A stretch of 33,800 bases of DNA, from the NCBI GenBank assembly GCA_007128855.1, contig SKWQ01000172.1, positions 1 to 33,800 on the forward strand. Reading direction: 5' to 3'. Made by a program: the position numbers and the translations under genes. This stretch comes from Balneolales bacterium. Lineage in GTDB: Bacteria; Bacteroidota; Rhodothermia; Balneolales; Natronogracilivirgulaceae. Position 1 is the stretch's first letter; every line of letters starts with the position of its first letter. This document shows, one piece after another, positions 12,391-33,800 of this stretch. The notes below the pieces were generated by a model. The model did not search any database and had not been told where the DNA came from. It saw only the letters and a program-made list of their open reading frames with translations.

Positions 12391-15384
12391 TTACAGTTGT
12401 TGGGATGCCCTGCGTGCAAATTCGGTTTCCGGGAACCGCTCGACCACATCACGCAAAGTCTGGTTTGCCCGCCCGGTCTGCCCCATCTGGCGGTACGACT
12501 CTGCCGTAGCCAGCATCGAGCGCGCCACCCATTCGTCAAATGCACTGAACAGGGTGCTGACCCGGGCATAGGCCTCAATGGCTGCTTCATGATTCCGGCG
12601 TGCCTGTTCCACATTCCCCAGATAGTACTGGGCCCTGGCACCGCTCTCGAGCGAGCTGGCATCCGCCACACGCTGAAAGTACTGCCTGGCATCCATCAGC
12701 TGTCCGCGCTGCAAAGCCACCCGTCCCTTGCCGATCACGGACTGCTCGTGTTCCGGGCGGCCCTGCAGTGCCTGGTTGTAGGCATCCTCGGCACGGTTCA
12801 GGTTCCCGGCAGCCAGGTGCGCATCCCCCAGGGACGCGAGGGCTTCCACCTGCAGACGGCCCTGTCTCCCGACCAGGGTTTCCAGTGCGTTGATGGCATT
12901 CTGTTCACGCCCTCTTCCGAGCTCAATCCGGCCTATGTGCAGCAGCGCCGGATCCATCCTGTCGGATTGCGGATAACCCTCCGTGATTTCCCGGTATGCG
13001 GCAATGGCCTGGTCGCGCTGTCCCATCTGCTCATTTGCTTCCGCGATGTGATACCATGCCTCTGGTATCATCGATTCGTTGGTGGTCACACGGATATAGT
13101 GGCGGAACGCCCCCACCGCGTCCTGATAATCGCCGGCCTGCAGCAGGTTTTCGGCCTGGCGGAACCGGAGTTGGTCGGCCGTGCCGGTCTGCGGATGACG
13201 GTCCAGAAACTCTTCCAGGATGTCCAGGCTCGTATCCTCCTCACCGGCCGCCATCTGGGCAAACTGGATGCCGTTGACCGCGTCCACCACCAGCTGGCTT
13301 TGCGGATAGGACTCCATCAACTCGCGGTAGGCATTGATCGCCATCTCGTAATTGCCGGCATTGTAGTAGGCATCCCCGATCTGGTACTGCGCCCGGGCGG
13401 CCCAGTCGGTTCGCGGATAACGGTTTATGAGTTCATGGAACTCCTGGATGGCCTGGTCGTAATTACCGATCTGGAAATAGATATAGCCGATATTGTACTG
13501 TGCCTGTTCACGCAACCGGCTGTAGGGATAGATGCGGATCAGCCGGCGGAAATTCTGCACCGCTTCGAAGGAATCTTCATTGCGATAGTGGCTGTTGCCC
13601 ATCTGGAATATGGCGTAGTCGCCGCCGGGCTCGGCGCCCACGGCACTATCATAGTTGCGGATGGCCTCCTCGTAGCGGCCGAGGGCATAGTAGGAGTCCC
13701 CAAGACGCAGCTGCGTATCCACATCATAGGGAAACAGCGCCATTGGCGGCGGTTCGTGGTCATTCTGGAACGATGTGAAATACCGGATGGCCCTGTCGAA
13801 CTGCCCCAGGTTGAAATGGGCCCATCCAAGCGAGTACACGGCTGCCCCGGCAAACTGGTGGTCGGGATAACCGTCCAGGAAGCGTTCAAACTGCCGGATG
13901 GCATCGCTCCAGCGCCGCAGGTTGTAGTAGCTGTCGGCACTCCAGAACAACGCCTCGGCCGCGAGCTCTCCTGAGGGCTGGTCGCGATAGACAGCTTCAA
14001 AATCACGTGCAGATTCCCGGTATGCATGGTTTTCATACCGCACCCACGCCCGCTGGAACTGTGCCTGCCGTTTCATGTCGGGATCCACATCGGCCGACTG
14101 TTCGGCAACCTCGAATGCCTGTACCGCCCGGGAAAATTCATTGTTGGCGAAATAGGCCTCGCCCAGAAGCGAATACACCGTGCCGGGATCTTTCAGCTGC
14201 TGATCGCTGCGGACCAGCTGCTGCAACACCTCGATGGCCAGATCGTAGCGGCCGAGTTCGAAGGCGGTCAAACCCCACTCATAGTAGGCATGTTCCACCC
14301 AGAAACCGGTCCGGTACCGGTCCCCGAACTTTTGGAACGCTTCCAGCGCCAGATCGTAACGGCCGCCCAGCTTCCGGTTGATGGCCTCGTAATAACGCGC
14401 CTTGCGGGCCAGTTCGTCATCACCCATCGCCGCTTTGGCAAAAGAATCACCCGCCCAGTGGAAAACGCGCTGCTTGTGGTAGACCCAGCCAAGGCCGTAA
14501 TGCGCGGGACGGGCCTGCATCTCGTCGCGGCTCAGGTTGATGTACCGGCGATACTGCGTGGCCGCCTGATCGAATTCCCCCAGATAATTATGGCTCTCGG
14601 CTATCAGCAGCGCCGCTTTCAGCTGCGCTTCCCCTTCCAGATAGGCCAGTTCGCTGCGGAGCGACTGGATGGCCTCCTCGTACCTTTCCTGCCGATAGTA
14701 CATCTCGCCCAGCGCCGTGCCGATCTGACGGGTCTGCGGATGGGTGGGATACCGCTTCCGTAGATCTTCAAAGACCTCCGTGGAGCGGTCGAAGTTCTCC
14801 TTGTCCAGATAAAGCTGCCCGCGGGAATACAGCGCCCTTGGAGCCCAATCCGAATCAGGGTATCGATCGGCCAACTCTCCGTACAATACGGATGAGGTAT
14901 CAGTACTGTCCATTCCCCGGGCCGATTCCGCCTTCCAGAACAGAAGCCTGGCCTTGTTCCTGCTTTGACTCTCCACATGGTATGCCCTGGAGTAGTCCTC
15001 CATGGCCCCGTAATAGTCCCCGGAAAGATACTTTCGTCCCGCCATATCCTCCAACAGGGCCACGGCGTTGGCACCGGACGGGTAATCCATCAGGAAACGG
15101 TTGGTGTAGATCTCGAACCGAAGGGTGTCCAGCGCAATGCGCGACAGCGCCATGTAATAATGCGCCTGTTCGGCAAGGTTCCGGTCGGGATCGCTGTCCA
15201 GAAATTGCTGCAGCTGTTCGGCCGCATGCTCGTACAGCCCCTCGTAAAATAGCGTGACTCCTGTCTGGTAGCGCTCATGGACCGGCTCGGTCACGACCTG
15301 GGCCTCGCTTTGGAGATACCTACCCGAAACTCCTGCGATCAGAAGCACTAAAATGGCAATCCGGAAGATCCCTTTCATCATCAC
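12391..15384 (-). CDS. Exported tetratricopeptide-repeat protein
   Basis: The 997-residue product begins with an N-terminal hydrophobic signal (about residues 5-22, after three consecutive Met). The rest is almost entirely TPR units from about residue 30 to the end. Typical units read YYNAGNYEMAINAYRELMESYP and LGRYDLAIEVLQQL, with many spaced about 34-37 residues apart. Such proteins are scaffolds for protein-protein contacts in the periplasm or at the outer membrane; the repeats resemble those of YbgF/CpoB and BamD, though it is far longer than either. No enzymatic domain or C-terminal anchor is seen. The exact first Met among 15384, 15381 and 15378 is uncertain. It sits between a CBS-domain gene and aroA in one orientation. 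Its partner and role cannot be read from the sequence. Confidence 0.9.
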   Translation of the reverse strand: MMMKGIFRIAILVLLIAGVSGRYLQSEAQVVTEPVHERYQTGVTLFYEGLYEHAAEQLQQFLDSDPDRNLAEQAHYYMALSRIALDTLRFEIYTNRFLMDYPSGANAVALLEDMAGRKYLSGDYYGAMEDYSRAYHVESQSRNKARLLFWKAESARGMDSTDTSSVLYGELADRYPDSDWAPRALYSRGQLYLDKENFDRSTEVFEDLRKRYPTHPQTRQIGTALGEMYYRQERYEEAIQSLRSELAYLEGEAQLKAALLIAESHNYLGEFDQAATQYRRYINLSRDEMQARPAHYGLGWVYHKQRVFHWAGDSFAKAAMGDDELARKARYYEAINRKLGGRYDLALEAFQKFGDRYRTGFWVEHAYYEWGLTAFELGRYDLAIEVLQQLVRSDQQLKDPGTVYSLLGEAYFANNEFSRAVQAFEVAEQSADVDPDMKRQAQFQRAWVRYENHAYRESARDFEAVYRDQPSGELAAEALFWSADSYYNLRRWSDAIRQFERFLDGYPDHQFAGAAVYSLGWAHFNLGQFDRAIRYFTSFQNDHEPPPMALFPYDVDTQLRLGDSYYALGRYEEAIRNYDSAVGAEPGGDYAIFQMGNSHYRNEDSFEAVQNFRRLIRIYPYSRLREQAQYNIGYIYFQIGNYDQAIQEFHELINRYPRTDWAARAQYQIGDAYYNAGNYEMAINAYRELMESYPQSQLVVDAVNGIQFAQMAAGEEDTSLDILEEFLDRHPQTGTADQLRFRQAENLLQAGDYQDAVGAFRHYIRVTTNESMIPEAWYHIAEANEQMGQRDQAIAAYREITEGYPQSDRMDPALLHIGRIELGRGREQNAINALETLVGRQGRLQVEALASLGDAHLAAGNLNRAEDAYNQALQGRPEHEQSVIGKGRVALQRGQLMDARQYFQRVADASSLESGARAQYYLGNVEQARRNHEAAIEAYARVSTLFSAFDEWVARSMLATAESYRQMGQTGRANQTLRDVVERFPETEFARRASQQL

Positions 15385-15423
15385 TGGCGGTTACGTTAAG
15401 AAAGGTGGAATATAGCAAATGGA

Positions 15424-20289: not shown

Positions 20290-20367
20290 CCAAAAAATGA
20301 TATTTTATGTTTTTGTGACATTCCTTGAAAACGCAGTGCCTGTGCAGGTATTTCCCAACAACTCCCT

Positions 20368-23058
20368 ATGATAGCAAGAACCTCGCATTCGTTTCACATT
20401 TTTTTCATCCTCCTGATCGCTGTTGCAGGATGTTCCCGGCAAGACGGCAGCCGCGAGTGGTGGTCGGCCATCCCCGAGGAAGTGCCGCTTGTGATCCTCT
20501 ATCACGACACCGATATCCACGAAGCGCTTCAGGACCGGCGGACGACGGCCCTTGAGGAACTCTCCGACGTGCGTGTCGAAGCCATTTCGGAAATCCTCGC
20601 CCGCATATCGGGCACGGTCACCCTCAAGGCCGTGGCCCTTTATCCCACCGGCACCCATCAGCTCCAGCCGATGTTCATCATGGACGATCCCGGTCCGGGC
20701 ATCGGCGCAATTGCCCAACCCTTTCGCAAGGAGTTCGCGGAAAACAGCTACCGGTTTCACAACAACGAGATCCACATCCTCCACCTGGATCGTCAAAAGC
20801 TGTATGCCGCGCAGATCCGCGACCAGATTTTTCTGAGCGGAAACAGTGTTGCCGTTGAAAACAGCCTGTTGGTACACAACGGGGAACATCCCGGCATCGC
20901 AATAGCGGGCCCTGAACTCGATGAAGGAACCTACCTGCTGAATACCCCGCAACTCTCCAGATGGATCAGTCTGCTCAGCGCCCCCCGCTACCTGCCCCGG
21001 TTTCAAAACCTGTTCCTGGGCACCGGCCCGGTCGTTCTTTCGCTGACCGGCGACCGATACGACGACCCCCTTTATGATGTGAGCCTGAGCGGCACCATTC
21101 CCCTGGATGCCGAATCGGCCTCCGGGTTTGTGAGTACGTTTGCTGCCGGACCGGCCGAAACCGATCTGGACCGGTACATTCCTGCGGATGCCGCTTTTTT
21201 TGCCCTGTTCCACCAGGGTCAGGAGGGAAGTTTGCCGGACAACCTGACCGGTGCCGGTCGTCTTGACTCGCTGCTGCAGTCCGACCACGAACTTGTTGCC
21301 GATCTTCGCGCCACCCTGGCTCCGCCCACGGCCTTTCTCACTTTTGAGGCCAGTGGCTTCCTGTCCGTCGGGGAGCATATGTACCTGCGGCGCCTTGAGG
21401 ATCCGGACAGGTTCCAGCGGATCCTGCGCGACCTGCACTCCAATGGGTACATCGAGGAAAGCAACGATGTGTACTATGTGAACAGCACTATTCTGGGACA
21501 CTTGCTCGGCGGCCCGCACAGCCGGCTCACCGATTTTTACGTACTCCGCTCAGCCAGTGCCGCCGTCATTACCAAGCGGTCAGGGCTGGCGCGCCGCATT
21601 GACCAGGACCGGCGGAGACGTGCCGTTGTCTACTATGATGACACCTACATGCGGGTCAGGGACCGGCATCCGGTAGCCGTGAGCGTGTGGATGTATTCCC
21701 GTTCCGGACCGCTGCTCAACTACCTGGAGCCGATGCTCAACCCGATCAACCACACCCGTTTCCTCGCTTCCCTTATGGATACCGGGGCGATGAGCCTGGT
21801 CCGCGACGGAGACCGGATCTCGATGCGTCTGGACACTTATTTCAGCGAGGACCGCACCGATCCGGTGCGTGATGTATGGGTCTTTGACCTGCTCGGTTCC
21901 CGCATCACCGGAAAACCCCTGCTTGCCAACATCGGGGGCGGATCACGGGATGAAATACTGATCGCAACGGAAAGCAACCACATCTATGGCATCGCGGCCG
22001 ACGGCACAGGATTCCTGGAGATCAATACGGGCAACGACCGGCCCATCGGTTCGCCGTTGGTCTATGACTGGTACGCCAACAACCAGTACGCCATCCTTAT
22101 TGCTGCCGGTAACAAAATCTATGCCTGGAATGCGCGCGGCATCCCGCTCCCCAACTTCCCGGTCACCATGGAGGAACGCATCACGGCACCCCTGGCACTG
22201 GCCGATGTGGCCCGTAACGGCCGGCCGGAAATGATCGTGGCCACAGCCGACCGCAAGGTACATGTGCTCGACCAGCGGGGCCGGAATATCCAGGGGTGGC
22301 CGCAGGATGTGAACATCCAGGTCACGCATCAACCCGTATTCCGTGAGTTTGCGGGTGAGCAGAGTGTGTGGATCACGGCCGGAAACGGGCTGTTCGCTTT
22401 CTCGTCCAGAGGAAACCTGCGTGATGGCTATCCGGTCTTTGCCGGATCAGACCTGGGTCCGTTCACCTTCCATGGCAGTCAGGTCCTTGCCGGAGCTGCC
22501 GACGGCCACCTTTACGCCATCGGCCGTGAGCCCTTCTTCGCAGATTCGCTTGTCGTTCCGCTGGACGACAACGGACAGGGGATGGATGCGGATCAGACTG
22601 CAGGATCTGCACAGCCGGGCAAGCTCCACGTCCGCCGGGTCTATGTCGGCAATTCGCCCATATTGAACGCACCAATCGTTCAGACCCTGACCCTTGACCA
22701 TGGCAACGGTCAGCGGTTACGCGAACGGATGATCGGCGTCCAGAACCAGAACGGAAACCTCTTCCTACTGAATGAAGCCGGTCATCTGCGAATGAGCCGC
22801 AACATGGGCCAGCCAGCCGCTTCCTACGACAACATGCTGATCACCGACCTGAACGGCAACGGCAAACCCGACATGGTCGGGGTGGCCTCCACCGGACGGG
22901 TATATGCCTGGCAGGTGGAATCCGGCGAGCAAGTACCGGATATCCCCTCTGCATCCGTGCGATTCCCCATTGTTGCCGATGTGCTGGGCAACGGGGAGCG
23001 GGAGCTCATCGGCCAGACCAGGGACGGCCTGCGGTGCTGGGCATTCCGGCGTCCGTAA
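20368..23058 (+). CDS. Large lipoprotein with C-terminal beta-propeller-like half
   Basis: An 896-residue secreted lipoprotein that I cannot name. The signal peptide ends in a lipobox VAGC with the acylated Cys at residue 22. Residues about 25-490 form a soluble region without a recognised catalytic motif, perhaps distantly like DUF3352 proteins of Bacteroidota. From about 500 on, repeated strands read like FG-GAP/VCBS or PQQ propeller blades: DEILIATESNHIYGIAADG, PEMIVATADRKVHVLDQRG and DLNGNGKPDMVGV. The last (near residue 827) contains a calcium-loop-like DxNxNGxxD. The ATG at 20368 gives a compact signal peptide. It diverges from the BatA-like gene and converges on the epimerase gene with 36 bases between. 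A surface or periplasmic binding role is plausible, but the ligand is unknown. Confidence 0.8.
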   Translation: MIARTSHSFHIFFILLIAVAGCSRQDGSREWWSAIPEEVPLVILYHDTDIHEALQDRRTTALEELSDVRVEAISEILARISGTVTLKAVALYPTGTHQLQPMFIMDDPGPGIGAIAQPFRKEFAENSYRFHNNEIHILHLDRQKLYAAQIRDQIFLSGNSVAVENSLLVHNGEHPGIAIAGPELDEGTYLLNTPQLSRWISLLSAPRYLPRFQNLFLGTGPVVLSLTGDRYDDPLYDVSLSGTIPLDAESASGFVSTFAAGPAETDLDRYIPADAAFFALFHQGQEGSLPDNLTGAGRLDSLLQSDHELVADLRATLAPPTAFLTFEASGFLSVGEHMYLRRLEDPDRFQRILRDLHSNGYIEESNDVYYVNSTILGHLLGGPHSRLTDFYVLRSASAAVITKRSGLARRIDQDRRRRAVVYYDDTYMRVRDRHPVAVSVWMYSRSGPLLNYLEPMLNPINHTRFLASLMDTGAMSLVRDGDRISMRLDTYFSEDRTDPVRDVWVFDLLGSRITGKPLLANIGGGSRDEILIATESNHIYGIAADGTGFLEINTGNDRPIGSPLVYDWYANNQYAILIAAGNKIYAWNARGIPLPNFPVTMEERITAPLALADVARNGRPEMIVATADRKVHVLDQRGRNIQGWPQDVNIQVTHQPVFREFAGEQSVWITAGNGLFAFSSRGNLRDGYPVFAGSDLGPFTFHGSQVLAGAADGHLYAIGREPFFADSLVVPLDDNGQGMDADQTAGSAQPGKLHVRRVYVGNSPILNAPIVQTLTLDHGNGQRLRERMIGVQNQNGNLFLLNEAGHLRMSRNMGQPAASYDNMLITDLNGNGKPDMVGVASTGRVYAWQVESGEQVPDIPSASVRFPIVADVLGNGERELIGQTRDGLRCWAFRRP

Positions 23059-28599: not shown

Positions 28600-29661
28600 T
28601 TATTTTTTCTGGCGGCTTTTTGTTTTTCCGGATCCGGACGGGGTGTCGGAAACTGAAGTTTTTCCGGTTTTGGCTGTCCCGCCCTTACCTTTACCGGCCG
28701 GTTTCCGGGATACATCTTCCCAGGCACCCATTTTGGAATACTTTTCGATCCGATGGGCCTTGAGCTCTTCCGGGGTCATTTTGGACAGCCGGTCGAGGCT
28801 CTCGACAAGCTGGTCGCGCACGGCCTTGGCGGCGATGGCATAGTTGCGGTGCGCCCCGCCCAGGGGCTCCCTGATGATGCCGTCGATGACCTTCAGCTTC
28901 ATGAGGTCCTGCGCGCTCAATTTCAGCGCCCTGGCAGCCTGCTCCTTGTAATCCCAGTTTTTCCAGAGAATGGAGGAACAGGATTCCGGTGAGATGACGG
29001 AGTACCAGGTGTTTTCCATCATATACACCTCGTTGCCCATTCCGATGCCGAGCGCACCGCCGCTTGCTCCCTCACCGATGACGACGGTCACGATCGGGAC
29101 CTGCAGCAGGGCCATTTCGCGCAGGTTGCGGGCGATGGCCTCGGCCTGTCCACGCTCCTCCGCCTCCAGTCCGGGAAACGCCCCGGGAGTGTCGAGCATG
29201 GTTATGACCGGGACACCGAATTTTTCCGCCGTCTTCATCAGGCGCAGCGCCTTGCGGTAACCGTCCGGATTGGGCATCCCGAAATTGCGGTATTTCCGGC
29301 TTTTTGTGTCGCGTCCCTTCTGGTGTCCGATCACCATCACGGACCTGCCCTCGAATGTGGCTAACCCACCGACGATTGCCTTGTCGTCACTGAAACAGCG
29401 ATCGCCGTGGAGCTCCACAAAATTCTCCATGATATTGTACACGTAGTCCAGCGTGTAGGGCCGGTCGGGATGACGGGCCAGCTGCACCCGCTGCCAGTGT
29501 GTCAGATTGGAGAAAATGGATGCCCGAAGTTCCTCGACCCGCTCCCGCAAGCGCTTGATTTCGGGCAGGAGCACATTGTCGTCGGTGATGTTCAGCTCAC
29601 TGAGCTCGGATATCTTCTTTTCCAGCTCAATGATCGGCTTTTCGAAGTCTAGATAATTCAT
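28600..29661 (-). CDS. accA: Acetyl-CoA carboxylase carboxyltransferase, alpha subunit
   Basis: AccA, with AccD, transfers CO2 from carboxybiotin to acetyl-CoA to give malonyl-CoA, the first committed step of fatty acid synthesis. Residues 1-315 cover the family: an N-terminal helical hairpin, [18 protein letters not shown] (83-100), [14 protein letters not shown] (151-164) and the oxyanion-hole loop [12 protein letters not shown] (196-207). The protein is 353 residues, about 35 longer than E. coli AccA. The extra C-terminus (about 319-353) is Lys/Gly/Ser-rich and predicted to be disordered. The gene begins a tight minus-strand run with lipid and membrane genes. No accD lies in the window. 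Confidence 0.97.
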
Positions 29662-29823: not shown

Positions 29824-30573
29824 TCAGAGGATGCCAAAGATACTGCGAATTTTGAGAATCCAAACCATCCAGACAGCTTCTACCACTATCTTTTTAGACA
29901 TTTTTGAGACTCCTTCCGTTCTCTCACGGAAGATAGTTGAGACCTCCTTGAGGGTGAACCCGGCTTTGTATGCCCGGAAATGTACTTCAATCTGGAATGA
30001 ATATCCATTCGACCGGATCTTTTTCAAGTCTATCTTTTCCAGAACCTTGCGGGAAAAGCATTTGAACCCTGCCGTGGTATCGCGTACCGGCATGCCCGTA
30101 ATCAGGCGGGCATACATATTGGCCGAATAGGACAGAATGAGCCTGGAAAGCGGCCAGTTGATGATGCTGATACCCTTGATATACCGCGAACCGATCGCCA
30201 CATCGCAGTTCCCCTCCCTGACCTCCCGGACCAGTCTGGGCACATCGTCCGGATCATGGGAAAAATCGGCATCCATTTCACAGATATACTGATAGGACCG
30301 CTCCAGGGCGTAATAAAACCCCGTGACATAGGCAGTACCAAGTCCCAGCTTGCCGGCTCGCTCGATCAGATGCACGCGGCCGGCGTACTTCTTCTGCAGT
30401 CCCTTCACAACCCCGGCCGTTCCATCCGGTGATCCGTCATCCACCACCAGGATATCCATCGGCTCATCCAGGCCAAGCAGATGAGGTATCAGTTTCGCAA
30501 TATTCTCCGCTTCATTGTACGTCGGTATAATGATCAGGGTGTCCCTGCTTCCAATTTCACTTTTCTGGCTCAT
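29824..30573 (-). CDS. Polyprenol-phosphate mannosyltransferase-like GT2 glycosyltransferase (Dpm1 type)
   Basis: A 249-residue family 2 glycosyltransferase. It has IIIPTYNEAENI (14-25), DDGSPDG (45-51), the metal-binding DADFSHDP (101-108), and GSRY and TTAGFKCF further on. This pattern matches Dpm1/polyprenol monophosphomannose synthases, which put a sugar on a lipid phosphate at the cytoplasmic face of the membrane. It lacks the C-terminal transmembrane pair found in GtrB proteins. The gene starts two bases after the WcaJ-type gene, so both are likely expressed together for surface polysaccharide or glycoprotein synthesis. The sugar specificity is not visible. Confidence 0.93.
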   Translation of the reverse strand: MSQKSEIGSRDTLIIIPTYNEAENIAKLIPHLLGLDEPMDILVVDDGSPDGTAGVVKGLQKKYAGRVHLIERAGKLGLGTAYVTGFYYALERSYQYICEMDADFSHDPDDVPRLVREVREGNCDVAIGSRYIKGISIINWPLSRLILSYSANMYARLITGMPVRDTTAGFKCFSRKVLEKIDLKKIRSNGYSFQIEVHFRAYKAGFTLKEVSTIFRERTEGVSKMSKKIVVEAVWMVWILKIRSIFGIL

Positions 30574-30575
30574 GC

Positions 30576-31991
30576 CTATTGTCCCTTGCCTTTTAATACG
30601 GTCATTATGGTGTTTATCAGGATCTTGAAATCCATTTTCAGCGAGATGTTCTCTACATAGAACAGGTCGTACTTCGTTTTTTCCTTCACATCCTCCAGGT
30701 TCTCATCGTATTTCCATTTTACCTGCGCCCAGCCGGTAATACCCGGCCTCACCCGCAACCGCCGTGAGTACAGCGGGATATTCTTTTTGAACTGATCGAC
30801 AAAATACGGCCTTTCGGGACGAGGCCCAACCAGGCTCATGTCCCCCTTGAGTACATTGAAGAACTGCGGGAGTTCGTCGAGCCGGAGTTTGCGCAGCCAG
30901 TAACCGATCGGGGTGATTCGCGGATCATTGTCGGTTGCCCAGACCGGGCCGCTCTCCTTCTCGGCATCGATGAACATCGTCCGGAATTTGTACATGGTGA
31001 ATACCTTGTCGTATTTGCCCACCCGCTTCTGTTTGAAAATGGCTGGTCCCGCCGAGGTGGTACGGATGATCAGGGTGAGGACAATCATCAGGGGCAGTGT
31101 GGGAATCAGGATCAGCAGCGAAAGCACAATATCCATCAGCCGCTTGATGAATTTTTCCCAGGTGGGCATCGGATCCGGCATCACATCGATGAGCGGAAGG
31201 CCGAAAATCTGATTGGTCTGGTTCAGGCCGGTGATCATCTGGTGGAAATCGGGCAGGATTTTCACGGATACGTCAGGTATGTCGATCTGGTCCAGGATGG
31301 TGACCAGGTTGTCCCGTTCCTCCTTCTCCAGGGCCACGATGACCTCCTGTACCTTGTGTTCCAGGATGAGATCCTTGATTTCCCCGATCGACCCGATGAC
31401 CATCTTCCTGTCGACCCTGATCTCATCGGTATCCGACCCGTTCAGCCGTAAAAAGCCGACCACATTCATCCCGGAAGTTCGGTGGCGGTTCAGGTTTTCA
31501 TGGACGGATTGTGCGGTCGGACCGGTGCCCACGATGAACGCACGATGCAGCCCTTCGCCACGCAGGGCGCGGTGTTTCTGGATGGTCCGGAGGATGAACC
31601 GACTGGTCGAAACACAGCCCAGCACAATCAGCCAGTAGATCAGCGTGACCCATTTTGCCTGATGAAGGTTGTCCGAGGTCCACCCCAGCGAATCAATGAA
31701 CAGCAGGAAAAAGAGGATGAGCGTACCGATTATGGTGATTTTCGCCACCCGGATGCTCTCGTCAAACCGGGAGATAAGGTAGAGATGGCGATACAGTCCA
31801 AATACCCCGAAAATGGCGATCCAGAAGATGGAAATGACCACTCCCGGAATAAACAGGCTGTAAGGTCCCATTCCGGATGGCGCACTCATCCAGCCCAGCT
31901 CAAACCTGAGATAGTAAAAGATGTACCACGCCAGTATCAGGAAGATAAAATCACTGATGATGGTACTGATTATTTCCCTTGCCTTATCCAA
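30576..31991 (-). CDS. Undecaprenyl-phosphate glycosyl-1-phosphate transferase (WcaJ/ExoY type)
   Basis: This initiates polysaccharide repeat-unit synthesis by moving a sugar-1-phosphate onto undecaprenyl phosphate. The 471-residue protein has four N-terminal helices and a Rossmann-like CoA-binding-type domain (about 148-250). The catalytic domain is complete: entry helix at about 283-309, FKQKRVGKYD (319-328), KFRTM (335-339), LDELPQFFNVLKGDMSLVGPRP (371-392) with the DE dyad, and RPGITGWAQV (415-424). The start codon is TTG at 31991, giving MDKAREIIST ahead of the first helix. The sugar (glucose, galactose or another hexose) cannot be told. It is divergently arranged with tgt. Confidence 0.93.
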   Translation of the reverse strand: MDKAREIISTIISDFIFLILAWYIFYYLRFELGWMSAPSGMGPYSLFIPGVVISIFWIAIFGVFGLYRHLYLISRFDESIRVAKITIIGTLILFFLLFIDSLGWTSDNLHQAKWVTLIYWLIVLGCVSTSRFILRTIQKHRALRGEGLHRAFIVGTGPTAQSVHENLNRHRTSGMNVVGFLRLNGSDTDEIRVDRKMVIGSIGEIKDLILEHKVQEVIVALEKEERDNLVTILDQIDIPDVSVKILPDFHQMITGLNQTNQIFGLPLIDVMPDPMPTWEKFIKRLMDIVLSLLILIPTLPLMIVLTLIIRTTSAGPAIFKQKRVGKYDKVFTMYKFRTMFIDAEKESGPVWATDNDPRITPIGYWLRKLRLDELPQFFNVLKGDMSLVGPRPERPYFVDQFKKNIPLYSRRLRVRPGITGWAQVKWKYDENLEDVKEKTKYDLFYVENISLKMDFKILINTIMTVLKGKGQ

Positions 31992-32157: not shown

Positions 32158-33285
32158 GTGTTCCGGCTCATAAAAGAAACGTCGAAAGGCAAAGCCCGCC
32201 TGGGTGAGATCCAAACCGATCACGGCACCATCCCTACCCCGGTCTTCATGCCCGTGGGAACGACCGGCACGGTCAAGGCCGTCGACACCCGCACCCTCAC
32301 CGATAAGATCAGGGCGCCCATCATCCTTGGCAACACCTACCACCTGTACCTGCGTCCGGGAACGGCGATCATGGAACAGGCCGGCGGACTCCATTCCTTC
32401 ATGAACTGGCCCGGCGCCCTGCTGACCGACTCCGGCGGCTACCAGGTGTTCTCCCTGTCCGAAATCCGAAAACTGGAAGCGGACGGCGTGGTCTTCAAGA
32501 GCCACCTTGACGGATCCTCCCATAAATTCACGCCGTCCCAGGTCATTGAGACACAGCGGATTTTTGGCTCGGACATCATGATGGTCCTGGATGAGTGTCC
32601 GCCCTATCCGGCGACCGAATCCTATGTCCGCCAATCACTTGATCTGACACATCGCTGGGCCGGTGATTGCCTGCAGGCGTTTCGTAACAGTACGGACCGG
32701 TACGGTCACCGGCAGTTCCTGTTTGGCATCTGCCAGGGCGGTGTGTTTCCTGATCTCCGCCGCAATTCCGTTGAAGTACTGTCCGGAATGGGGTTCGACG
32801 GCATGGCTATCGGCGGGCTGAGTGTCGGTGAGCCGGCCGCAAAAATGTACGAGATCACAGATATCTGCACGGACCTTCTTCCACGTGAAAAACCACGCTA
32901 CCTGATGGGGGTCGGCACGCCCGGTGACCTTCTGGAATCGGTGGCCCGCGGGGTGGACATGTTCGACTGTGTCATGCCTACCAGAAATGCCCGCAACGGG
33001 ATGCTGTTCACCCGCAACGGCATCATCAATGCCAAAAATGCCCGGTGGAAGACACATTTCGGCCCGGCCGACGACGGGTTCCCCTCCGATCTGTGCACCC
33101 GTCACACCATGGCCTACCTGCACCACCTCTTCCGCGCCGGTGAAATACTCGGATTACAGCTTGCGACCGTGCACAATCTGACGTTCTACCTTTGGCTGAT
33201 GGATGAGATCCGACGTCACATTGGGGACGGCACGTATGATGACTGGTACCCCGGTATGGTCTCGAAGGTAACGTCACGGGTATAG
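32158..33285 (+). CDS. tgt: tRNA-guanine transglycosylase with reduced zinc site
   Basis: Tgt exchanges guanine 34 for preQ1 in tRNAs with GUN anticodons, leading to queuosine. The 375-residue protein has DSGGYQVFSL with Asp91 (general acid/base), GGLSVGEP (219-226) and the nucleophile Asp270 in FDCVMPTR. The zinc-binding CxCxxC...H element is altered. Aligning YLHHLF and VHNL puts Phe308 and Ser310 where the first two Cys should be, and only Cys313 and His339 remain. As I recall, many Bacteroidota Tgt proteins also lack these Cys, so it is probably a lineage variant and not a dead enzyme. It starts at GTG (32158), with no ATG in frame nearby. It is alone on the plus strand, and the convergent gene begins 8 bases beyond its stop. 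Confidence 0.95.
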   Translation: MFRLIKETSKGKARLGEIQTDHGTIPTPVFMPVGTTGTVKAVDTRTLTDKIRAPIILGNTYHLYLRPGTAIMEQAGGLHSFMNWPGALLTDSGGYQVFSLSEIRKLEADGVVFKSHLDGSSHKFTPSQVIETQRIFGSDIMMVLDECPPYPATESYVRQSLDLTHRWAGDCLQAFRNSTDRYGHRQFLFGICQGGVFPDLRRNSVEVLSGMGFDGMAIGGLSVGEPAAKMYEITDICTDLLPREKPRYLMGVGTPGDLLESVARGVDMFDCVMPTRNARNGMLFTRNGIINAKNARWKTHFGPADDGFPSDLCTRHTMAYLHHLFRAGEILGLQLATVHNLTFYLWLMDEIRRHIGDGTYDDWYPGMVSKVTSRV

Positions 33286-33293
33286 GCAGCGAC

Positions 33294-33800
33294 TCATCTG
33301 CCCCGGTCGATCATTTCCAGTGTCGGGTGGCGGTAGATCAGCGTTTTTACCAGAACGTCCAGATCCAGCCAGATCGAGTAGTTTTGCAGATAGTAGAGCT
33401 CATGCATCTGCTTTTCGTCCTCATGGTAAAGCCGGTTTTCGGAGAGCTGCCGGAACCCGGTGAGCCCCGGCTTCACGTTGGCATAATGCGGTTTGCGGTC
33501 CGGCACCACCGGTCCGCCGACCATGCTGATCTTTCCGGTTGCCACTTTCCATAGCAGCAGATACCGGTTTTTCCAGCGATGGGAGCTATAGGGCAGAAAC
33601 AGAGGGATGGTATGGGTGATCGAATCTGACACAGATATGTTCAGAGGCGTGCGCTTTCCGTGCTGGATGAGCACCGGTATCAGAAGCACCGGTGTGAGCA
33701 ATGCTACAAGCGGCAGTGAGACAGCCAGATCCAGTATACGTTTGAGGAACAGGTTCCAGCGGGAAAAATAGGGCAGGTTGACATCCATCACGGGTATGTC
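33294..33800 (-). CDS. Degenerate sugar-transferase domain, 3' part of a gene cut by the window edge
   Basis: The frame stays open to the window end and is therefore partial at its 5' end; a GTG/ATG at 33791/33788 is internal. The visible 168 residues align with the end of the WcaJ-type protein. DIPVMDVNLP corresponds to its GLPLIDVMPDP, KRILDLAVSLPLVALL to the membrane-entry helix, GKISMVGGPVV to GDMSLVGPRPE, KPGLTGFRQL to RPGITGWAQV, and YYLQNYSIWLDLDVLVKTL to its C-terminus. The core between helix and GKISMVGG is shortened. It lacks KFRTM, the FKQKRVG loop and the DE dyad of DELPQ, which holds the nucleophile in related enzymes. It may be a pseudoenzyme or the C-terminal module of a larger glycosyltransferase. 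Confidence 0.75.
   Translation of the reverse strand, partial: DIPVMDVNLPYFSRWNLFLKRILDLAVSLPLVALLTPVLLIPVLIQHGKRTPLNISVSDSITHTIPLFLPYSSHRWKNRYLLLWKVATGKISMVGGPVVPDRKPHYANVKPGLTGFRQLSENRLYHEDEKQMHELYYLQNYSIWLDLDVLVKTLIYRHPTLEMIDRGR

Follow-up and report, generated by a model that had tools for sequence, protein, structure and literature searches.

Introduction

Large monotopic PGTs such as WbaP (8t53) and WcaJ (TIGR03025, EPS_sugtrans) are built from a helix bundle, a PF13727 domain, a hairpin, a re-entrant helix and a C-terminal Bac_transf half. As far as the accessible text of the sources goes, the DE pair of monotopic PGTs carries out covalent catalysis and the PRP motif binds uridine (PMC10653937), a mobile loop closes over the bound nucleotide (PMC10519829), and a different Arg is favoured for uracil in PMC12550135. 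In Porphyromonas, the first A-LPS sugar appears to be added by WbaP and the second by GtfC, which ties an initiating PGT and a putative second-sugar GT to T9SS anchoring (accessible portion of PMC7468200).

Here we report a gene whose product, judged by its full-length orthologues, shares with the large monotopic PGTs all the parts named above at the level of sequence, but has a GT2 domain in front, lacks DE, KFRTM with the mobile loop, and PRP, and is 45 residues shorter than the neighbouring PGT. Like a Bi-PGT, as portrayed in the available text of PMC10942596, it joins a PGT domain to another functional domain, but here the whole large-PGT module is fused and its PGT part would be dead, the motifs of an active PGT being absent. 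With GT2 glycosyltransferases (PF13641/PF00535) it has in common, in its orthologues, the family motifs including NPD (DxD-like) and ED, whereas its membrane module would be borrowed from a PGT. The likeness to WbaP and GtfC would be one of role, and the available text of PMC7468200 mentions no dead PGT.

The literature searched, mostly non-subscription papers, yielded neither a description of such a fusion nor an inactive monotopic PGT. The window, the whole stretch of DNA analysed, is one contig of 33,800 bases in a Balneolales draft genome of 287 contigs. We know of no work on T9SS glycolipid genes in these organisms. In outline, we give a probability of about 0.55 to the reading that the gene encodes a two-module membrane GT, in which a GT2 acts after WcaJ and a retired PGT serves as membrane dock.

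Results

A shortened PGT domain at the contig end

The features of the locus are collected in Table 1. The Bac_transf profile of Pfam matched residues 83-154 of the 168-residue fragment at profile positions 94-174 of 179 (53 bits, cut-off 27), leaving the first half of the profile unmatched, whereas the neighbouring WcaJ covers all 179 positions. Counting from the Trp of the entry helix to the final Thr gives 139 residues for the fragment versus 184 for the neighbouring WcaJ, that is 45 fewer, of which 31 are lost between the entry helix and S-[ML]-V-G, 11 from there to [RK]PG[IL]TG and about 3 elsewhere. The preliminary description had put the shortening of the core at roughly 60 residues, which is too high: 31 were measured in the core and 45 over the whole domain. 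It was right on the distance of 1.3 kb to wcaJ and on the absence of KFRTM and the DE dyad from the partial protein; the PRP motif, which it did not mention, is gone as well. A PHROGs search gave no match.

Table 1. Positions of the features in the window
Feature	Position	Strand	Remarks
3' part of the GT2 / helix bundle / PF13727 / pseudo-PGT fusion gene	33294..33800	-	168 codons, 5' end cut by contig end
Re-entrant membrane helix region, kept	33666..33758	-	K-R-x-x-D entry; helix in two AF2 models of low overall confidence
Short predicted beta hairpin at the KFRTM/mobile-loop place, no KFRTM	33588..33647	-	strands in low-confidence models
Asn codon at the place of the catalytic Asp	33567..33569	-	182-row alignment; profile alignment to 8t53
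Kept C-terminal half of Bac_transf (GKISMVGG, KPGLTGF, YYLQNYSIWLDLD)	33339..33554	-	
tgt, between fusion and wcaJ in Balneolales	32158..33285	+	convergent with fusion
WcaJ/EPS_sugtrans active-type large PGT, conserved companion	30576..31991	-	KFRTM, DE, PRP and PF13727 domain
Dpm1/PpgS-like GT2, conserved companion	29824..30573	-	NCBIfam matches below cut-off; synteny
accA, conserved cassette flank	28600..29661	-	

About the first 550 residues are absent upstream of the fragment. A search of the window's assembly did not recover this 5' part; the sole match was a GT2 on contig C169 with 27% identity. The GT2 of the window's own gene is thus assigned by orthology, because its first part is missing from the assembly.

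Full-length orthologues begin with a GT2 domain

Searching 146 relatives, the window's genome included, gave 74 matches, and neighbourhoods were fetched for 60 of them; the 13 unfetched are mostly short ordinary sugar-transferase matches, but also include two full-length frames (G117, G126) and a piece at a contig edge (G046). Orthologues of the same genus are 71-84% identical, with frames of 741-807 codons. Full-length orthologues of about 670-850 residues have a uniform architecture, composed of an intact-looking GT2 domain, a helix bundle, a PF13727 domain, a linker hairpin, a re-entrant helix and a shortened Bac_transf end; eight of the 60 fetched frames are cut by contig ends or have a part absent. 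The helix bundle and the PF13727 domain, lying outside the window, are seen in orthologues only. Pfam searches with seven orthologues recovered GT2 in all seven, and PF13727 and Bac_transf over cut-off in six each. Among 94 fusions of at least 600 residues, the GT2 motifs Y[GA]ED[ILD]D, NPD, HYKGE[SC] and [VI]DNx[SA] occur in 94, 93, 91 and 90, respectively. No NCBIfam model reached its cut-off with the GT2 part, which resembles the PgaC/IcaA and MftF models weakly, far below cut-off. A profile of 26 order sequences aligned with WbaP 8t53 at E 3.1e-23, the match covering the helices, the PF13727 domain and the PGT, and with PglC 8e37 at E 9.3e-16.

The N-terminal domain that the preliminary description had left to be identified is therefore a GT2 in the orthologues. 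Its suggestion of the remnant C-terminus of a bifunctional enzyme holds for the architecture and for the lost catalysis, but not as simple decay; the second complete catalytic domain that it had named as counter-evidence exists as another domain, a GT2, and not as a second PGT. The membrane helices behind the GT2 and the weak likeness to PgaC/IcaA and MftF would also fit a processive or polymerising synthase, in which GT2 and following helices elongate or export a glycan and the PGT part is a fold remnant. We regard this as decidedly improbable, since the part behind the GT2 matches WbaP and the GT2 family matches lie far below cut-off.

Although the gene stops at a contig end, an assembly error or a pseudogene private to the window's genome has a practically negligible chance, because 60 other genomes of the order each contribute a sequence with the same shortened domain, including six named MAG contigs (one Balneolaceae, five Balneolales); an assembly error deleting the core is thereby excluded. 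An rRNA operon upstream is a likely cause of the frequent contig ends at the fusion gene. In L066, L072 and L082 such an operon, complete or partial, precedes porZ; in L053, whose porZ lies elsewhere, it precedes the fusion.

The catalytic motifs of the PGT domain are lost

To compare the C-terminal half, 182 rows were aligned, comprising 81 WcaJ sequences (80 from fetched loci and the window's) and 101 fusions, of which 61 are order-level including the window, 20 came from a class search (two of them, L106 and L107, from in-order genomes) and 20 from a phylum search. The DE pair is found in none of the 101 fusions, two of which lack the domain and two more of which are gapped at the D column, versus 81/81 WcaJ, in line with the earlier idea of an inactive paralogue, which these sequences render probable. 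A pattern search found K[FLYI]R[TS]M and GPRP in 0/101 fusions each versus 81/81 WcaJ each, and K, R and M of KFRTM, D, E and PRP are each present in all 81 WcaJ rows. At the column of the catalytic Asp (D in 81/81 WcaJ), 60 of the 61 order-level fusions have Asn and one has Ser; among the other 40 fusion rows there are one Asp (L117, without the Glu), four gaps and otherwise other residues. Glu at the dyad partner column occurs in no fusion among the 101. The DExP string of five fusions is located in the linker hairpin.

Counted ungapped from the G of GKIS/GDMS, the N of WKNR in the window falls on the D of LDELPQ, giving D to N and E to R, and the 182-row alignment and the profile alignment to WbaP 8t53 concur in placing Asn opposite this Asp. 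A 12-row MAFFT alignment differs in showing a gap opposite DELPQ, so that a replacement of Asp depends on the alignment, whereas the absence of DE does not. On most alignments, the catalytic Asp would have been substituted rather than deleted. The FRSM and mobile-loop region is skipped in the profile alignment to WbaP 8t53. That the domain is a still-active PGT using other residues is extremely improbable: L117 does have an Asp at the nucleophile column, but no partner-column Glu, K[FLYI]R[TS]M or GPRP exists in the 101 fusions. One fusion of 848 codons (L095:3209-5752, genome G080) has stretches of low complexity inserted into its GT2 part and ahead of the former dyad.

What the dead transferase has retained

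Still conserved in the fusions are the K-R helix entry, the G of S-x-V-G, the PG-x-TG turn and the tail Tyr. At the K-R-x-x-D entry, K and R are found in all 61 order-level fusions, followed by D in 59 and E in 2. The linker hairpin between the PF13727 domain and the PGT has the consensus GKSNVEYLDDIP, with invariant and nearly invariant columns of the C-terminal-half alignment. In WbaP the corresponding hairpin forms the dimer, and UMP inhibits the enzyme, according to the available text of PMC10942596.

Three basic residues bind UndP in PglC, as stated in the accessible part of PMC10519829. The equivalent of PglC Arg88 is R in 81/81 WcaJ, and R in 3 and K in 23 of the 61 order fusions, while that of Lys179 is unconserved in both fusions and WcaJ and that of Arg145 is at best shifted by one residue. 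PglC-like binding of UndP or an acceptor by the dead module is therefore unlikely, because the Arg88 equivalent is mostly lost.

AF2 was run on shallow alignments of window and related-locus sequences only; the model of the full-length orthologue L033, from 11 rows, had a mean pLDDT of 47.7, and that of its C-terminal half, from 12 rows, one of 50.3. Foldseek placed WbaP 8t53 first for the C-terminal-half model (E 6.7e-8, TM 0.20); coming from so poor a model, the match would only agree with the sequence profile.

The fusion is old, and its dead domain is under selection

The GT2 is the best conserved part of the fusion, with a mean pairwise identity among 51 sequences of 0.66, compared with 0.38 for the helices, 0.42 for the PF13727 part and 0.38 for the pseudo-PGT. 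By the Nei-Gojobori method applied to 14 pairs (undefined in 2, many dS near saturation), dN/dS of the pseudo-PGT was 0.07-0.19 in 11 of the 12 defined pairs, and 0.41 in one pair with dS 0.03. These low values suggest that the dead domain is kept as a structure and not as a catalyst.

The A4 profile found matches in 206 of the 244 genomes of the class at E 1e-10 and in 249 of the 392 of the phylum at E 1e-15; many of these matches are WcaJ itself. Twenty loci were taken from each list, picked for long frames, and in all 40 the frame starts with the GT2. The 700-residue matches in other orders had been considered as WbpM/PglF-type dehydratases, which was rejected as the translations of these 40 loci start with GT2. 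In a tree of the helix bundle, PF13727 domain and re-entrant helix, built without the catalytic columns from rows chosen among the 101 and the 81, a single branch separates 53 fusions from 41 WcaJ sequences (SH-aLRT 99); the tree was computed by a quick method and rooted at the midpoint, and it contains one long branch and 17 rows of odd composition. It follows from this two-sided tree that the neighbouring WcaJ is not a recent parent of the fusion. An assembly error and a recent remnant are both ruled out for the fusion, which recurs in other orders and classes and forms one clade apart from WcaJ.

Slow erosion of a C-terminal part with no present role is quite improbable to us: its motifs are further eroded in other orders of the class and it is deleted in several lineages, yet purifying selection acts on it in the pairs compared, with dN/dS of 0.07-0.19 in all but one of the 12 defined, and the fusion persists across classes.

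A conserved neighbourhood, and co-occurrence with PorZ

In 18 of 20 loci from other classes, wcaJ, dpm1 and the fusion lie in that order and on one strand, sometimes with an extra gene between wcaJ and dpm1, and accA is next in 17 of these 18; of the exceptions, L134 has only a wcaJ scrap and L144 none of the companions. In all 18 loci from other orders of the class, accA closely follows the fusion.

Co-occurrence was scored in 128 order genomes, with E-values of 1e-45 (fusion), 1e-90 (WcaJ) and 2e-60 (PorZ) or better. The fusion was present in 64 genomes (G103, whose PGT part is deleted, being scored positive), WcaJ in 72 and PorZ in 71 (67 over the curated cut-off), 19 weaker PorZ matches (1e-10 to 1e-21) being scored absent. 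Given as both, first only, second only and neither, the counts were 63/1/9/55 for fusion and WcaJ, 61/3/10/54 for fusion and PorZ, and 67/5/4/52 for WcaJ and PorZ; they ignore phylogeny, and the genera g22 and g26 make up 40 of the 52 genomes without both WcaJ and PorZ. Eight of the nine mismatches between WcaJ and PorZ are genomes less than 90% complete, and the ninth, G055, has a run of N there. A PorV-family control was found in 126 of 128 genomes, so genome incompleteness does not explain the absences. Repeated joint loss is suggested by two genomes of genus g18 and two of g28, which lack all three genes while their sisters have them.

PorZ bears the NCBIfam label T9SS anionic-LPS delivery protein. 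With a match over cut-off to NF052228, porZ was recognised at L146:123-2441, L147:10576-12894 and L148:103-2421, in each case upstream of the GT2 gene. It directly precedes that gene in L146 and L147; L148 and L082 have one small gene in between. In the window's genus, PorZ is on contigs other than that of the fusion, the window's porZ contig, C96, being 3417 bases long. Outside the class, PorZ was present in 68 of 68 fusion candidates among the matches listed (20 recognised from their translations, 48 from profile match and frame length alone), compared with a background of 260 of 392 genomes. Two large frames were also seen in the window: one of 909 codons at 20329-23055 (+), whose match to a T9SS-dependent inactivated M6-like metalloprotease stays below cut-off, and one of 999 codons at 12394-15390 (-), with many TPR-type matches, for example to YbgF/CpoB and BamD.

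Natural deletions spare the GT2

Three order-level groups have deleted the dead domain in the slot beside tgt and have retained GT2, wcaJ and dpm1. The gene of G103 ends after the hairpin (543 codons), keeping GT2, helices and PF13727 part; G032, G056 and G048 keep the GT2 and a PF13727 scrap in frames of about 400; G055, where the start lies inside a run of N, and G112 keep only the GT2 (about 300). Since these deletions spare the GT2, the main function appears to reside there, with the dead module as an accessory, and because the latter two groups have no predicted membrane helices, a membrane dock is not indispensable. An apparent loss of the PGT part in G111 was rejected, as the gene appears split between contigs C3 and C96 of that genome. 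In G093 and G094 the same slot (L151:9292-10110 and L152:8940-9758) holds a GT2 about 35% identical to that of the fusion, which may reflect either replacement by another gene or fast divergence.

These deletions bear on the proposal that the dead domain is a partner or regulator of the active transferase, by which it would pair with WcaJ via the PF13727 domain and hairpin, relay UMP/UDP-sugar sensing of the WbaP type and so control pathway entry. WcaJ is present in 63 of the 64 fusion genomes, and the strongly conserved hairpin is the counterpart of the dimer-forming one in UMP-inhibited WbaP. However, WcaJ remains in all three groups that dropped the dead domain, and the most conserved part is the GT2, not the dead module, for which reasons we hold this role to be unlikely.

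Discussion

On the favoured reading, the N-terminal GT2 would do the chemistry, and the C-terminal module, from the helix bundle to the C-terminal helices, would be a former large monotopic PGT whose nucleophile is gone along with the elements that bind metal and nucleotide. WcaJ would make undecaprenyl-PP-sugar from undecaprenyl phosphate, and the GT2 of the fusion would then add the following sugar on the same membrane face, held at the membrane by the dead module, probably as a dimer scaffold. The product would most likely be the glycan of the lipid anchoring T9SS cargo, because the pair of WcaJ and fusion tracks PorZ.

More tentatively, and at less than even odds, WcaJ may hand its product over to the fusion, perhaps within a mixed dimer, so that the pair lays down the first two sugars of the PorZ/T9SS glycolipid, with the retired PGT preserved in several classes of the phylum as the dock of the enzyme that follows in its own pathway. 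By analogy, the two proteins would match the pair of WbaP and GtfC in Porphyromonas.

For annotation there is a practical warning: the fragment passes the Bac_transf cut-off and would be named a sugar transferase, yet judged by its residues the domain should be unable to act by the established mechanism. Through the PorZ link, two genes can be put forward for the T9SS glycolipid. If true, a dead PGT serving as a fusion module over several classes would show how consecutive membrane glycosylation steps can be kept together, a picture to which the natural deletions of parts of the fusion add.
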